From Candidatus Euphemobacter frigidus (GTDB lineage: Bacteria; Auribacterota; Erginobacteria; Erginobacterales; Erginobacteraceae), in NCBI GenBank assembly GCA_030765805.1, contig JAVCDH010000090.1, positions 1 to 35,132 of the forward strand: a stretch of 35,132 nt of DNA. Direction: 5' to 3'. Every line of letters begins with the position of its first letter. The first letter of the stretch is position 1. Shown here in pieces: positions 17,138 to 23,298 of this stretch. A program made the position numbers and the translations under genes. Under the pieces are notes generated by a model. It made no database searches. It worked only from the letters and a program-made list of their open reading frames with translations, and was not told the DNA's origin.

Positions 17138-20100
17138 TTATTTTTTTATTGGGGCCACCTGATAGACCATATAAGCCTCATTCACGGAGAGGTCACGCTC
17201 ATAATGAAGAAGACGAAAATGTTTCAGGTTCCGGAGGTTGGGAAGATCGAGAAGCCGGTAGAGTGTGCTCTCCTTGAGCTGTGTTATATTGTTGATGCCC
17301 ATCTGCTGGGGCTGGAAGATTATGTCCGGCGAGAAACTGTACTGAAACTGGCCGGTCTGCGTATTGTAGCGGATGAGCTTGAAGTACTTGGAGGAGATAA
17401 TAATATAATTCAGACCTCGGGCCGCCAGGGCACGGGCCGCGGTCTCCTCCGACTTCCAGTAGAGCTGGGGAAACTGAAAATCGATATTATCCGGGGAGAG
17501 TTCCGAATCGAGACCGGATATCGCTTCGGCCATATATCCGTCACTCCAGGGGACAAAGATTCGCCCACCGGCCGGCGCGTGATCATTCAGCCATTTATAG
17601 ATCCGATACTCTCCTTCGGTGCTCTTCGCGGTCTGATTCATGGAAGGGATAATCGTGGCAAAGAGCCAGCAAACCACCGCCACACCCCAGAGATGATTCC
17701 TGATCTCCCCGTTCTTCCGGGACCGGATCAGAAGAAAGATCAGAACCCCGAAGAAGGGGGGGGCGATCAGATAGAGATTAGCCCAGAACTTTCCGGCGCC
17801 CAGAAAGAGGAAAAGGAGACCCAGTACAGGCAGGAGGCAAAAGGCGCCCTTCTCGAGCATAGAGGAGCTTTGCTTTCTGGCTTTCCTGTCTTTCAAAGGC
17901 CTGGTCAAGGCCAGGAGGATCATCAGGAATCCCGGAACAAGAAGGCAGACCTGGACCGACCAATAATTCCGAATGGTTTTTATATACAAGCTAAGCCGGG
18001 GGAGGATCTTGTTAATCACCTCCACCTGCCGGGCCGGCTCAAGCGTCCTGATCCCATCAAGGAGTTTAAGATTGTCCGGCTGCCCCAGTTCCTTGACCTG
18101 GAAGATCAGACCGCCAAAGACCGCGCCTATCAGCATCCAGAGGGCGGTGAGGGAGAAGATCGCCCAGATCCACTTCGGTTTTTTCCCGTCCCTAATCCAG
18201 AGCTTCCCGAGATAGATAAATAAACCTGTTACAACCAGTGAAAAGAACATAAAGAGATAAGCGAAACCGGGAGCGGACCGGAGGAGCCCTCCGGGGATAC
18301 CGGGCAGGTCGAAGATGCCGAGGCTGTCTCTCAGGGACGGCAACGGCAGGAAGATAAGAACGGCCCCAATCCCGATGAGGCTCGCGGCCACGGTCATCAG
18401 GCTGAGGATCGAGCGCCGGTCCTCTTTCGGCCATTGGATGGAATAATAGATGAAGAGCGCCGCGACCGGGAAGAAGACGGCGTATTCCGTCGAGTACTTG
18501 CCTCCGAAGAGGCCGATGATGAAGCACATCCAGGCCGCCAGGATCCAGCTGTAGGCGGAACGCCAGTTGACAAATGCCAACGCCCCCATCAGGGCAAAGC
18601 CGAAAGTCAGGGGTCGGGTCCCCCGGTCGGCCGTCCGGGAGGCCAGAAAAGCCACCATCAGCAACGCCAATCCCAGCATATCTTTCTTCTTGAGAGCCAG
18701 ATAGAGACCGATCGGAAGGAAGAAGAGGAGAAAGTTGAACCGGAGCCAGTAATCGCCCAGAGAACTGGCCAGAAGATCGCCGGAACCGGCCTTGATCTGG
18801 CTCAGGACATTGATTCCCCTGTTTCCCAACGCCAGATTGAAAGTCTTCTCCATCAATACCGGCATGACTTCCAGGTAGAGCAGAACCAGCAGGCCCACAG
18901 TCATTACCAGAAAACAGACCACCGACAGATATTTAAAGCCCTTCCTTATGAAAAACAAGTGCCAGAACAGAAAGAAGATCAAGCCGGCCGCCGCGGCGAT
19001 AAGGATGAACTGAGAACTGAAACCACTGATCTTCAGATCGTCAGCGCCGGAAAGAATCAAGACCGGGTTTGTTCCCCATACCACCTGACCTCGGGCGCTG
19101 ACAAGCTTTCCCGTGAAAAACGCAGCGGCGTTATAAGGAAACTTTGCCAGATCGGCTTTCTGGATTACCAGGCTTAGAGGAGGATCAGGCTCCCCCTTGA
19201 ACTTAAGGAGCAGATCGCCGGCCGGCGAGGTCAGCCGGGTATTCTTGATTATCCCTCTCACCGTTGCCGGTTTTCTTATATATTCGGCCCGCCAGGTCAC
19301 CGAACCGGTTGTATCCGCCAGACTCTGATAGATAAAGAACAGCAGCGGAAGAGCCGCGACTGTTATCAGCGCCGCCCCCCACCGGTACAACTCGCGGGTG
19401 GAGATGAACCGGACCAGTTGCCATATAATAAAAGTATATAAGACGAAAATAACCGTGAGATAAATTAACCGGAAGGGATATCGGACAACCTGCAGATCTT
19501 CAAGATTGTCAATCAGCAGGACCGGGTCGGGGGTATAGTCGATCTTCCCGTAAGCAGTTACCGTCTTACCCTTGAAGAAATTAGAAGGATCCGGAGTGAT
19601 TCGGGACGCCACTTGAGAGGATATCTTGATGGAGATGGCATCCGGATCATCTTTATCAAAATACAATGTGATTTCCCCGGTCGAAAAAGATTGATCAGCC
19701 CCGGTGATCTTTCCGCTGACCGAGAATCTCTGCCCGGGAGGTTTAGAGTGGCTGCCCAGGTAGTCGGGCACGTATCTCCAGTAGATAGATTTACTTACAT
19801 AATAAAGTTCTTTGTACCCCAGCGATACCAGTGGAACTGCCGCCAGCAGTATAATTACCAGCACAGAGTATCTTTTAACCGGTCTGGAGCTAAGAAAAGC
19901 TCGGATGCCCTGCCAGAGCAGGAAGATAATAATAGTTCCCCCTCCAACCATTATCGTCGGGCCGACATGTCTTCCCAGGAAAAGAGAGAACAGGCAGAGG
20001 AAACCATAAAAAAGCCGGCTCCATCCTTGCCGCTTAAAGACCATCAGAACTCCATAGAGGGAAATAATCAGATAGGGGTACGCGAAGATATCATGGGTCA

Positions 20101-20521
20101 CGGTACCGGCGCTGTTGAACATCGGGAGAACCATTGAGCCATAGATCAGCCCGGCCAGAAAGCCCGTCTTTTTGTTGTGAAGTTCCGAGACGAAGAGACA
20201 GAAGAGAGCGGCGTTGAGAGATGAACTGAGGGAAGAGGTCAGGTAAGTTCCATAAAGGAGAGCCGGCCCGCTCAGGAACGCTCCCAGGACCTTCAGTATC
20301 CACCAGCTGGGATCCCAGACGGAGTAGAGGTCGAAGGTTCCCTTGGCCACGCCGTAGTAAAACCAGAGTTCGATCCCGCTGACCGTGTGCCATCCCCAGC
20401 GGAGAAAGAATATCAGGGTAACGACCAGACGTTCGGAGAGGGCAAAGAGAAACACATAAAGAATAAGTCTCCAGAGAGGGCAACCCTCGATCCTCTCCCA
20501 GAATGTCGTTTCGCCGTTCAT
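17138..20521 (-). CDS. Large STT3/AglB-like membrane glycosyltransferase with two inserted OB-like domains
   Basis: An 1127-residue polytopic protein that looks like a GT-C oligosaccharyltransferase relative. Roughly twenty hydrophobic helices run from residue 18 to about 960. A soluble C-terminal domain follows (about 965-1127) with YKWLNDHAPAGGRIFVPWSDGYM; the WSDGYM at 992-997 sits where STT3 and AglB carry WWDYG. Possible catalytic acids are E51 (GIELWFYYG) in the first loop and D144 (THDIFAYP) in the second. Unusually, two extracytoplasmic beta domains interrupt the helices, at about 263-346 and 416-498. They are duplicates: FFKGKTVTAYGKI...PVLLI and FFTGKLVSARGQV...PVLIL align directly. 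The length exceeds AglB (about 850-970), mainly because of these inserts. The start has no Shine-Dalgarno sequence and lies just after a tandem repeat. Function inferred: transfer of a lipid-linked glycan outside the membrane. Confidence 0.72.
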   Translation of the reverse strand: MNGETTFWERIEGCPLWRLILYVFLFALSERLVVTLIFFLRWGWHTVSGIELWFYYGVAKGTFDLYSVWDPSWWILKVLGAFLSGPALLYGTYLTSSLSSSLNAALFCLFVSELHNKKTGFLAGLIYGSMVLPMFNSAGTVTHDIFAYPYLIISLYGVLMVFKRQGWSRLFYGFLCLFSLFLGRHVGPTIMVGGGTIIIFLLWQGIRAFLSSRPVKRYSVLVIILLAAVPLVSLGYKELYYVSKSIYWRYVPDYLGSHSKPPGQRFSVSGKITGADQSFSTGEITLYFDKDDPDAISIKISSQVASRITPDPSNFFKGKTVTAYGKIDYTPDPVLLIDNLEDLQVVRYPFRLIYLTVIFVLYTFIIWQLVRFISTRELYRWGAALITVAALPLLFFIYQSLADTTGSVTWRAEYIRKPATVRGIIKNTRLTSPAGDLLLKFKGEPDPPLSLVIQKADLAKFPYNAAAFFTGKLVSARGQVVWGTNPVLILSGADDLKISGFSSQFILIAAAAGLIFFLFWHLFFIRKGFKYLSVVCFLVMTVGLLVLLYLEVMPVLMEKTFNLALGNRGINVLSQIKAGSGDLLASSLGDYWLRFNFLLFFLPIGLYLALKKKDMLGLALLMVAFLASRTADRGTRPLTFGFALMGALAFVNWRSAYSWILAAWMCFIIGLFGGKYSTEYAVFFPVAALFIYYSIQWPKEDRRSILSLMTVAASLIGIGAVLIFLPLPSLRDSLGIFDLPGIPGGLLRSAPGFAYLFMFFSLVVTGLFIYLGKLWIRDGKKPKWIWAIFSLTALWMLIGAVFGGLIFQVKELGQPDNLKLLDGIRTLEPARQVEVINKILPRLSLYIKTIRNYWSVQVCLLVPGFLMILLALTRPLKDRKARKQSSSMLEKGAFCLLPVLGLLFLFLGAGKFWANLYLIAPPFFGVLIFLLIRSRKNGEIRNHLWGVAVVCWLFATIIPSMNQTAKSTEGEYRIYKWLNDHAPAGGRIFVPWSDGYMAEAISGLDSELSPDNIDFQFPQLYWKSEETAARALAARGLNYIIISSKYFKLIRYNTQTGQFQYSFSPDIIFQPQQMGINNITQLKESTLYRLLDLPNLRNLKHFRLLHYERDLSVNEAYMVYQVAPIKK

Positions 20522-20608: not shown

Positions 20609-22354
20609 TTATAAACCCGGGTCCAACCGTCTTAGAATCGCGCGGGCCTTGTCCGCCCGTTCTCCTTCCGGGCGAAGTTCGATAAAAGCCCGCAGGTTCT
20701 CTTTCGCGGCTTTGCTATTCCCCTCCCGGTAGTCAAGAATTCCCAGGGCATACCGGGCCGGGCCGTAATTCTCCTTGAGTTCAATCGCCTTCCGGAAGGA
20801 TCGGCGGGCCTGGTCCGGTCGGCCAAGCCGGTTACAGGCCCATCCCTTCCTGGTGAGCAGCCGGGGCATCCGCCAGGGGTTATAATTTTCTTCTTCCAAT
20901 ACCCCGTACTCCTCCACCGCCTTCTCATATCTATGGAGAAAATATAACGATTCGGCCAGCAGAAAACGCGCCTCAAGGTCATCCGAATTGACGCGGAGAA
21001 GTCCTTCTAGAATCAGGGCCGCCGAGGCATATTTTCTCTCTTCGAACTTCTCCCGGGCCTCTTCCAGAGTGGTGAGTTTCTTCACCCAGGCACAGAAATC
21101 GGGGGCGGACTCCGCCAGGGAAACAACCGGGACCAGCGGCACGGAGAGCTTCCGCAGAGCCCATCCCGGGGGGGAAGCCATAATCTCCCCCCGGGCTCTC
21201 CGGACCGGGAGAAACTCCCGGATCAGGTGAAGCGGGAGGTCGATTACGGCGCTGAAGTCCGGGAGAGAGCGCCGGGGTATCCCCACCAATTTGCCGATCG
21301 CTTCGCGGACCCGCGGTCTCCCCTCCAGCCACTCTCCGAGCGCGGGGACCTCCCGGGCGGCCTCGGCCGGATCCAGGGTCGGGGGGATCAAAGATATAAT
21401 CTCCGGCAACCGATCATCCTTGATCTTCCAAACTCCGGTGACATCCCGGAGGGCCTGACGGACGTCTATAATCACCGGCCTACTACTGAAGACTGCTCCA
21501 TCCTCCGGGCGAAAGGCTTCGGAGGACTTAACCATCTGTATCCCGTCCAGATCCACCCGACATTGCCGGGCGATCTCCATCGTTATATCGTAATACTCCG
21601 GCGGGAACCCCAGTACCCGCATCTCTTCTTCGCTTTTAAGATAATAATTGCGGACACCAAGCTCAAAGTCCGTCGGGTAGCCAAATCGAGTCTTGATCAG
21701 GATATCATGGAACCGCCAGTCCCGGGCCAGCCGATAGTGGGAGTCGTTGGTAACCACCGGCGTCACCCCGAATCGTTTCGAGAGGGCGATCAGCCCTTCG
21801 TTCGCTTTCTCCTCGTCGGTGATCCCGTGCCGTCCCAGTTCGGGATAAAAATCGCGGCCGAAAATATCATAGTAGCGCCGGAACTCTTTCTCCGCAGCCT
21901 CCATCCCGCCGGTGATATATTTCTGAGGGAGCGATCCCCAGAAACATCCGCTCAGCGCGATCAGGCCATCGTGAAACTCCTCCAGGAGCTTCCAATCCAC
22001 CAATCCACGGGTCTCACCGAAGTTGTTCTCCAGCCAGCTGCGATTGTTCAGCCGGACCAGGTTACGGAATCCCTCGTTGTCCCGGGCCAGCAGTATCAGG
22101 TGGTTCCGATAAGAATCGTTCGTCTCGATACTTTTCCGGGCATCGTCAACAAAGTAGACCTCGCAACCGAGGACCGGGTGGAGACCGACCCGGCGGCAGG
22201 ACCAGTAAAAAGGATAACAGTAATCAAGCACCCCGTGATCGGTGATGGCGACCGCCTCCTGTCCCATCTCTTTGATGTATGAGAGGTCCCGGTCAGGGTC
22301 CAGGAGGCTGTCCGAGTACGAACCGAAAAAATGACAGTGGAGGTGGGCGAACAT
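20609..22354 (-). CDS. DnaE-derived PHP phosphoesterase with degenerate polymerase remnant and TPR tail
   Basis: A 581-residue protein related to the N-terminus of bacterial DNA polymerase III alpha. Residues 1-245 are a DnaE-type PHP domain with an apparently complete metal site: HLHCH (4-8), TDH (38-40), GCEVYF with E65, H85 in NHLILLA, C137 in LIALSGC, H176 in GRHG, and ND-SH at 203-206. Residues about 295-415 still resemble the DnaE polymerase core (ALRDVTGVW...LIPPT, LVGIPRRS, LIREFLPVRRARGE). The palm, with its GRGSAAGS loop and PDxDxDF aspartates, is absent, so it cannot be a polymerase. Residues about 425-575 are TPR repeats (KYASAALILEGLLRVNSDDLEARFLLAESL and following). It may be a nuclease or phosphoesterase with a scaffold. 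It lies 26 bp after rnhC and shares its upstream repeat with the next gene. Confidence 0.85.
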   Translation of the reverse strand: MFAHLHCHFFGSYSDSLLDPDRDLSYIKEMGQEAVAITDHGVLDYCYPFYWSCRRVGLHPVLGCEVYFVDDARKSIETNDSYRNHLILLARDNEGFRNLVRLNNRSWLENNFGETRGLVDWKLLEEFHDGLIALSGCFWGSLPQKYITGGMEAAEKEFRRYYDIFGRDFYPELGRHGITDEEKANEGLIALSKRFGVTPVVTNDSHYRLARDWRFHDILIKTRFGYPTDFELGVRNYYLKSEEEMRVLGFPPEYYDITMEIARQCRVDLDGIQMVKSSEAFRPEDGAVFSSRPVIIDVRQALRDVTGVWKIKDDRLPEIISLIPPTLDPAEAAREVPALGEWLEGRPRVREAIGKLVGIPRRSLPDFSAVIDLPLHLIREFLPVRRARGEIMASPPGWALRKLSVPLVPVVSLAESAPDFCAWVKKLTTLEEAREKFEERKYASAALILEGLLRVNSDDLEARFLLAESLYFLHRYEKAVEEYGVLEEENYNPWRMPRLLTRKGWACNRLGRPDQARRSFRKAIELKENYGPARYALGILDYREGNSKAAKENLRAFIELRPEGERADKARAILRRLDPGL

Positions 22355-22380: not shown

Positions 22381-23298
22381 TTAAATGACCGCCAGAATCT
22401 CTTTAGTAGTCTTGAAGTGTATCTTCCCCACCTTGACCAGCGCTTCCATTCCCGCCTTTTTGATGATGTTCTTGCCCGCCGCGATCACCACATCCTTCTT
22501 GTTCCCCAGAGGAAGTTTTACCCCGAACTCGTCCGATAGTTTCTTCAGGCGAAGGACGAACTCTCCCCGGGCCAAGACGGAGGCGGCCGCCACCGCCAGA
22601 TCCGATTCGCCGCGGACTTTCTGCACGATTTCAATCGACCGGCCTTTCTTCATCAACGCTTTCAGCACCAGGTCTTTCTTGCCGAATTGATCCAGGATCG
22701 CTTTGTGGCAGCTGGTCTTGGTCAGAATATTTTCAATCACCCGCGCGTGCCCCCAGGCTAAAATCCGGTTCAGATTACCCATAGTAATATAGAGCTGGTT
22801 ATAGCGCTCGGGCCCGATAGCGACAATGGAGTAGCGGCAATCCCGGCGGATAACCGTCCGCAGTTCCCGAATCCGGCGATCGGAGATTCTTTTGCTGTCC
22901 CGCACATTCAAGTCTCGTAATTTCTTTTCTCTCTCAGCATCGAGAAAGACCCCGGCTATCACGAGCGGGCCGAAATAATCTCCCTTGCCGCTCTCATCAA
23001 CCCCAATCCGCTCGCCCTGGAAACTTTCGAGGATATTCTCATAACCAAACCGAATCTCTTTTAATATCTCCGGCTCCAGGAAGAACTGAACAAAATCAAC
23101 GGTATCCTTCCCCTGAATTAAAAGCTTTCCCGATTTATACAGAGTAAGGGAGAGGTGCCCCAGGGAAGCGCCGAAGTGGGCATGAGGAACGGTCTTGAAA
23201 ATAAAATCCTTCTTCTCCAAACCAAACTTCAACCGAGCAGCCTGATCCCGATTGAGCTTAACGGTATAGGAGGTTATGGGTTTTGTTAAATGGTCCAT
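22381..23298 (-). CDS. rnhC: Ribonuclease HIII
   Basis: Endonuclease that cuts the RNA strand of RNA-DNA hybrids. The 305 residues carry an N-terminal TBP-like substrate-binding domain (about 10-85) specific to RNase HIII. The catalytic domain opens with IGVDESGKGDYFGPLV (98-113; D101 and E102 catalytic). The other carboxylates are D203 in AILDQFG and E231/D233 in KVRGESDLAVAAASVLAR. The GKGDYFGPL variant distinguishes HIII from HII. Its first 13 bp overlap the end of sppA in another frame. Length is normal. It sits in a same-strand run with sppA and the PHP-TPR gene; the link with a DnaE-derived protein may hint at a nucleic-acid role, but the run also includes unrelated genes. Confidence 0.93.
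   Translation of the reverse strand: MDHLTKPITSYTVKLNRDQAARLKFGLEKKDFIFKTVPHAHFGASLGHLSLTLYKSGKLLIQGKDTVDFVQFFLEPEILKEIRFGYENILESFQGERIGVDESGKGDYFGPLVIAGVFLDAEREKKLRDLNVRDSKRISDRRIRELRTVIRRDCRYSIVAIGPERYNQLYITMGNLNRILAWGHARVIENILTKTSCHKAILDQFGKKDLVLKALMKKGRSIEIVQKVRGESDLAVAAASVLARGEFVLRLKKLSDEFGVKLPLGNKKDVVIAAGKNIIKKAGMEALVKVGKIHFKTTKEILAVI

Follow-up and report, generated by a model that had tools for sequence, protein, structure and literature searches.

The reuse of paralogues of replicative or translesion DNA polymerases is a theme already familiar from DnaE2 and ImuB-type repair factors, of which ImuB is catalytically dead. In DnaE2, it is usually the PHP site that is lost, with the polymerase retained (PMC12926913). 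Surveys of C-family polymerases (including PMC12926913) report decay of the PHP site alongside a retained polymerase. The 2026 survey, which covered >3000 complete genomes, defined four C-family groups, all of them polymerases, and found the nuclease to be more conserved than the polymerase only in PolX, with no such group in the C family (PMC12926913). A survey from 2013, searched by keyword, contains no mention of a form with PHP kept and polymerase lost (PMC3919608).

Noncanonical PolX and PolX-like proteins are the nearest biochemical precedent for the protein described below. They have lost polymerase activity, keep the PHP 3'-5' exonuclease site (PMC9226535, PMC12926913), and act as 3'-5' exonucleases (PMC9226535). 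However, they belong to family X rather than C, carry a PHP domain of another subfamily, and are linked to double-strand break repair and not to cyclase or CheR contexts; TPR repeats are not reported in the accessible portions of the cited descriptions (PMC9226535, PMC12926913).

The gene studied here is located in a 35,132-nucleotide stretch of the genome of Candidatus Euphemobacter frigidus, hereafter the window, and its product displays the reverse of the DnaE2 pattern. Profiles, structure models, a phylogenetic tree, and orthologues support its identification as a DnaE homologue in which the PHP site was kept, the polymerase centre was lost, and a TPR tail was gained, as the original prediction had proposed. 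With this protein, the outcome in which the nuclease outlives the polymerase, so far known from PolX, is now seen in a replicative polymerase family. The features of the locus are as follows.

20609..22354, minus strand: whole gene for a protein composed of PHP, DnaE-thumb remnant, and TPR parts; intact open reading frame with ATG start, 581 aa
21545..22354, minus strand: DnaE-type PHP domain, residues 1-270; Pfam PF02811 and DnaE models, nine ligands present
21503..21544, minus strand: junction, residues 271-284, where ~140 DnaE palm residues are missing; defined by profile-match boundaries and the degenerate-palm relatives L008-L011
21101..21502, minus strand: polymerase-core remnant, thumb and start of the second palm half, residues 285-418; hhalign and fold of the fragment
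20624..21082, minus strand: TPR tail, roughly residues 425-577; Pfam TPR_19 and TPR_8, helical hairpins in the model, TPR structure matches
22381..23298, minus strand: upstream neighbour rnhC, encoding RNase HIII; NCBIfam rnhC, 237 bits

PHP domain and polymerase remnant

PF02811 matched residues 4-176 with 111.5 bits (cut-off 26.4), and NCBIfam DnaE models covered residues 2-270 only, the best of them scoring 193 bits. The expected PHP domain of DNA polymerase III alpha is therefore present at the N-terminus, although it extends to about residue 270 instead of 245. Pfam and NCBIfam searches gave no PolX family match for the protein; all polymerase matches were to DnaE or PolC. Nine metal ligands were identified: H6, H8, D15, H40, E65, H85, C137, D204, and H206. 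They spell HHDHEHCDH and thus match the signature 'HHDHEH[C/H]DH', published for calling a PHP site active (PMC12926913). Their make-up of five His, three acidic residues, and one Cys equals that of the trinuclear zinc centre of Mtb DnaE1 (5 His, 3 Asp/Glu, and 1 Cys; PMC5636811). Each of the nine ligands is kept in 19/19 family members, among relatives diverging to 26% identity. The claim of a complete ligand set was correct, but not the list itself: D15 had been missed, and H176, which is kept in only 15/19 relatives, is ruled out as a metal ligand.

Rough dN/dS values for the PHP domain were in the range of 0.06-0.19. For the pair P0001 and L003, the values were 0.06 (PHP), 0.18 (thumb), and 0.14 (TPR), all of them rough and obtained at saturated dS. 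The ratio is <1 in every part of the protein, and the PHP domain is the slowest-evolving one. These sequence comparisons indicate that the PHP domain is under purifying selection. A non-catalytic scaffold, in which the TPRs act as the adaptor and the PHP-thumb part as an inert platform, would be compatible with the TPR tail and with the variable C-terminal partners found in this family. We consider such a role very improbable in view of the perfect retention of nine catalytic ligands and the strongest constraint acting on PHP. The search for specificity-determining residues that distinguish the dead family from DnaE revealed only two soft positions, F68 and F230; the pocket therefore does not reveal the substrate.

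The profile of residues 285-418 aligned to residues 417-544 of the organism's own DnaE, which we take to be the thumb and the start of the second palm half, following the domain names of Pol III alpha. The hhalign probability was 99.0 and the score 93, compared with scores of ≤12.9 for 30 column-shuffled controls and 3.1 for a reversed one. When modelled alone, this 134-residue remnant had a pLDDT of 91.4. A Foldseek search of the model against 350,542 PDB chains retrieved DnaE first (3e0d, TM 0.72, rmsd 3.3, probability 1.00), and the first 16 of 41 PDB matches were all C-family polymerases. Both hhalign and fold matches thus show a relation to the DnaE core within the region of residues 250-420, and the similarity originally noticed at residues ~295-415 holds for 285-418.

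The match to DnaE covers residues up to ~270 (DnaE up to ~275) and resumes at residue 285, which corresponds to DnaE 417. The missing stretch, approximately DnaE 275-417 (~140 residues), is the segment with GRGSxAGS and PDxDxD. The reported disappearance of the GRGSAAGS loop and the PDxDxDF aspartates is, therefore, the absence of this segment, and no Asp occurs at the third catalytic position. The retained part is the thumb with the start of the second palm half, and the excised part is the first, catalytic half of the palm. The fingers, (HhH)2, beta-binding (clamp), OB, and C-terminal domains are absent as well. They are replaced, in agreement with the original description, by TPR repeats at residues ~425-577: TPR_19 and TPR_8 scored above cut-off, several Pfam TPR models matched from about residue 430, and the structure model contains helices in this region. 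Conserved residues of the DnaE thumb, among them the HAAG motif, are no longer present. The net charge of thumb and PHP shows no consistent shift.

The AlphaFold2 model of the whole 581-aa protein, for which the input was ten sequences (window and locus), had a pLDDT of 91.5 and a pTM of 0.86. Its top PDB matches were DnaE structures, with a query TM of ~0.6 versus ~0.42 for PHP-only constructs. The closest solved structure by sequence was Taq Pol III alpha (E=3.9e-43, residues 2-278); a second segment, from residue 299 onward against Taq 501-593, was collinear but insignificant. With DnaE1/Pol III alpha of Taq (2hpi, 3e0d) and Mtb (7pu7), the window protein shares the nine-ligand PHP domain, the thumb, the start of the second palm half, and the order of these parts. 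In contrast to DnaE1, it is devoid of the first palm half with GRGSxAGS and the catalytic aspartates, and has the TPR tail where DnaE1 has the fingers, HhH, beta-binding, OB, and C-terminal domains.

Stand-alone PHP phosphoesterases, such as RNase AM (7ug9), 3o0f, histidinol phosphatase, and CpsB-type tyrosine phosphatases, share the PHP fold and the type of metal site with the window protein. They are, however, weaker structural matches (E 1e-5 for 7ug9 versus 1e-25 for DnaE) and have no DnaE thumb. PHP tyrosine phosphatases control exopolysaccharide (PMC10816263, PMC2364625), and genes for an alginate-export-type porin and a large membrane protein are located downstream of the window gene. 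These facts would fit a protein or small-molecule phosphomonoesterase similar to the capsule-linked PHP tyrosine phosphatases. Since the PHP domain is of the DnaE type by both sequence and fold and the thumb is kept, there is little chance that the protein belongs to this category.

Orthologues, intermediate forms, and distribution

A separate full dnaE is present in the same genome (G000:C17). This 1165-codon open reading frame matches PF07733 with 345 bits and has GRGSSAGS, PDIDMD, and the full PHP ligand set intact. Orthologues with the same architecture as the window gene occur in independent MAGs (G001, G002, G004, and G031, the latter being Ca. Tritonobacter), so the gene is not an assembly artefact. 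Two named relatives, Ca. Erginobacter occultus and Ca. Tritonobacter lacicola, assign the window to Ca. Auribacterota. Every genome of the family and order that was searched (G001-G004) contained an orthologue; that in G003 has no TPR tail. The G003 gene (L006:1501-2745(+)) ends after the thumb, and the next gene starts ~65 nt later, so the tail was lost and not cut by assembly. Truncation of a DnaE-like sequence is what would be expected of a pseudogene or a mis-assembled dnaE. This explanation is refuted by the intact separate dnaE, the independent genomes with the same architecture, the purifying selection, and the well-folded model, and we give it virtually no credence.

The INTERMEDIATE stage is represented by four genomes from another family of the Auribacterota. 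Their relatives of the window protein are 530-550 residues long and have the palm in place but dead. In these proteins (L008-L011), CPDPEAS occupies the position of MPDIDMD in their own DnaE; in one of them, GSGAGG replaces GRGSxAGS. L008 still passes the DNA_pol3_alpha model (43.7 bits, cut-off 23.9). The branch with the degenerate palm is an intermediate stage, and the endpoint is a protein with the palm removed and TPR repeats or a cyclase added.

In the PHP-based tree, all dead members were placed on one side of a branch separating them from 34 DnaE sequences (support 100/100, 100% of bootstrap trees), and the same separation was obtained with 64 DnaE. This tree rules out that the gene arose locally by decay of the dnaE in the same genome. 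The tree is unrooted, and the palm may have been excised once or several times. Among 386 sampled genomes, only the Auribacterota and four other groups matched beyond PHP, with three candidates scored per genome, so that a wider presence is possible. These four groups are small and of phylum level; members were detected in 2/2, 2/2, 2/3, and 7/7 of their genomes. The TPR tail is missing in the seven-genome phylum, as it is in G003.

Given the purifying selection on PHP and the spread over several phyla, our results support an ancient polymerase-dead family. The term 'degenerate', initially used for this gene, is best read as referring to such a family and not to a decaying gene. Relatives are found in several little-known phyla, often near signalling genes, and the family therefore looks like an ancient, hitherto undescribed reuse of a replication enzyme. 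It suggests the existence of a regulated phosphoesterase, so far unstudied and almost universal in certain candidate phyla. These natural stand-alone PHP-thumb proteins also make the debated PHP activity of DnaE measurable without polymerase activity. G059 seems to add a PolC-like polymerase, with PHP inside a long open reading frame (L082, G059:C21), to its DnaE and PHP-TPR protein.

Gene neighbourhoods and predicted function

The gene order in the window, rpiB-deoC-sppA-rnhC-PHP/TPR-membrane protein-TPR-porin, is largely conserved in five genomes; in the G004 version of this neighbourhood, no sppA match was found. The rnhC gene is located directly upstream of the PHP/TPR gene on the same strand, with a gap of 26 nt that contains no obvious Shine-Dalgarno sequence. 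The adjacency to RNase HIII pointed out earlier is thus real, but it is kept only in the window's order (5/5 genomes) and is absent in Tritonobacter and other clades. Accordingly, the partnership with RNase HIII is ruled out as a general explanation, and this neighbour is a weak, order-specific hint.

One potential role is that of a replication or repair nuclease, which would either serve DnaE in trans by trimming 3' ends (primer or mismatched) or process RNA primers and R-loops jointly with RNase HIII. The ancestry from a DnaE proofreader, the conserved rnhC gene, and an rmuC gene adjoining the intermediate form in L037 would agree with this role. On the other hand, the loss of the fingers, beta-binding, OB, and C-terminal domains, as well as the absence of replication neighbours in other clades, make it unlikely. 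Also, the PHP domain of the organism's own DnaE carries the full ligand set, so that help in trans is not needed. The idea of a replication-linked adaptor, included in the original prediction, is weak for the same reason of order-limited rnhC adjacency and in view of the signalling neighbours found elsewhere.

In Tritonobacter, the PHP/TPR gene is located near hydrogenase-maturation genes, while in G059 and G060 (L039, L040) it lies between argC-like and ackA-like genes, as judged by sequence. In G060, a second family member carries a fusion to two Guanylate_cyc domains and AAA_16. The PHP gene of G091 has a homologous cyclase-AAA-TPR gene as its immediate neighbour (E=1e-76 over ~840 columns); a protein of the cyclase-AAA-TPR architecture is also encoded near the PHP gene in G160. 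G171 and G431 share the gene order TPR, DUF4388-TPR, CheR, PilT-like ATPase, and PHP-thumb, and the PHP-thumb gene occurs in 7/7 genomes of the phylum with this CheR-PilT order. Because signalling enzymes and TPR partners, the latter either in cis or encoded by nearby genes, recur in these contexts, the neighbourhoods suggest regulated signalling and not the replisome.

The proximity to soluble-adenylyl-cyclase-like proteins, fused or adjacent, and a GGDEF gene two genes from the PHP gene in G130 would be explained if PHP degraded a cyclic nucleotide or dinucleotide made by a linked cyclase. The window genome (94.7% complete), however, keeps the gene with neither PF00211 (class III cyclase) nor a GGDEF domain detected, and no class III cyclase was detected in G003 and G004; the relatives G001 and G002 have both. 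Cyclic AMP, cyclic GMP, or c-di-GMP is therefore an unlikely substrate of the window protein. This sets back a role as cAMP/c-di-GMP phosphodiesterase, and a second-messenger phosphodiesterase appears decidedly improbable to us.

We are inclined, by a narrow preference, to regard the window protein as a polymerase-dead DnaE paralogue turned stand-alone PHP phosphoesterase. From sequence and model, we predict that it most likely acts as a Zn/Mn phosphodiesterase or 3'-5' exonuclease tethered by its TPRs. A point against the phosphodiesterase reading is that phosphomonoesterases and protein tyrosine phosphatases are found among PHP enzymes as well. The disappearance of the HAAG motif from the thumb and the absence of the TPR tail in some members are further points against it. 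In addition, the contexts vary among clades, so that a common function for all members is conjectural.

The results support descent from DnaE within one ancient lineage, now spread over several phyla, in which the nine-ligand PHP site and the thumb were kept, the catalytic palm half and everything past the start of the second one were lost, and the TPR tail was gained. The PHP site would bind three Zn or Mn ions and hydrolyse a phosphodiester in nucleic acids or nucleotides, most likely in the 3'-to-5' direction on nucleic-acid ends as do PHP-proficient DnaE and PolX. In Mtb DnaE1, whose PHP exonuclease is a precedent, the thumb stands between the polymerase site and the exonuclease site (PMC5636811). 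In the window protein, the thumb may stay as a wall or lid of the nuclease cleft. Recruitment or gating of the enzyme, in a setting of regulated signalling or stress outside the replisome, would fall to the TPRs or to partners encoded by neighbouring genes. A bolder and only tentative proposal is that the PHP-thumb module of this phylum-spanning lineage, acting on a nucleic-acid or nucleotide substrate, serves as the output or off-switch of TPR, cyclase-AAA, or CheR-PilT sensors, i.e. that a replicative proofreading nuclease was moved from the replisome to signal transduction.

Several further observations were made on these loci. The natural fusion in G060 (L103:5-4027(-), G060:C511) has the order PHP-thumb-(TPR-like)-cyclase-cyclase-AAA_16 and ends at the contig edge. 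Its second cyclase domain seems to be without the first metal Asp (NISGF), while NxxxR is kept; the pair resembles the pseudo-heterodimer of soluble adenylyl cyclases. A search of open-access papers found none on a PHP-cyclase-TPR fusion. The conserved order of TPR, DUF4388/TPR, CheR, PilT-like ATPase, and PHP-thumb genes was located at L141:266-7134 and L142:6242-13031. A Rfam search of four family loci gave no match. In L104:6542-9055(-) and L140:7001-9583(+), the C-terminal ~350 residues have no Pfam match and, by eye, look STAS- and PilZ-like. The 1127-aa membrane protein in the window (17138-20521(-)) contains ~265 extra residues (~239-505) that are unmatched in the L032, L033, and L035 orthologues; by eye, they form two similar soluble modules and read as a duplicated insert.
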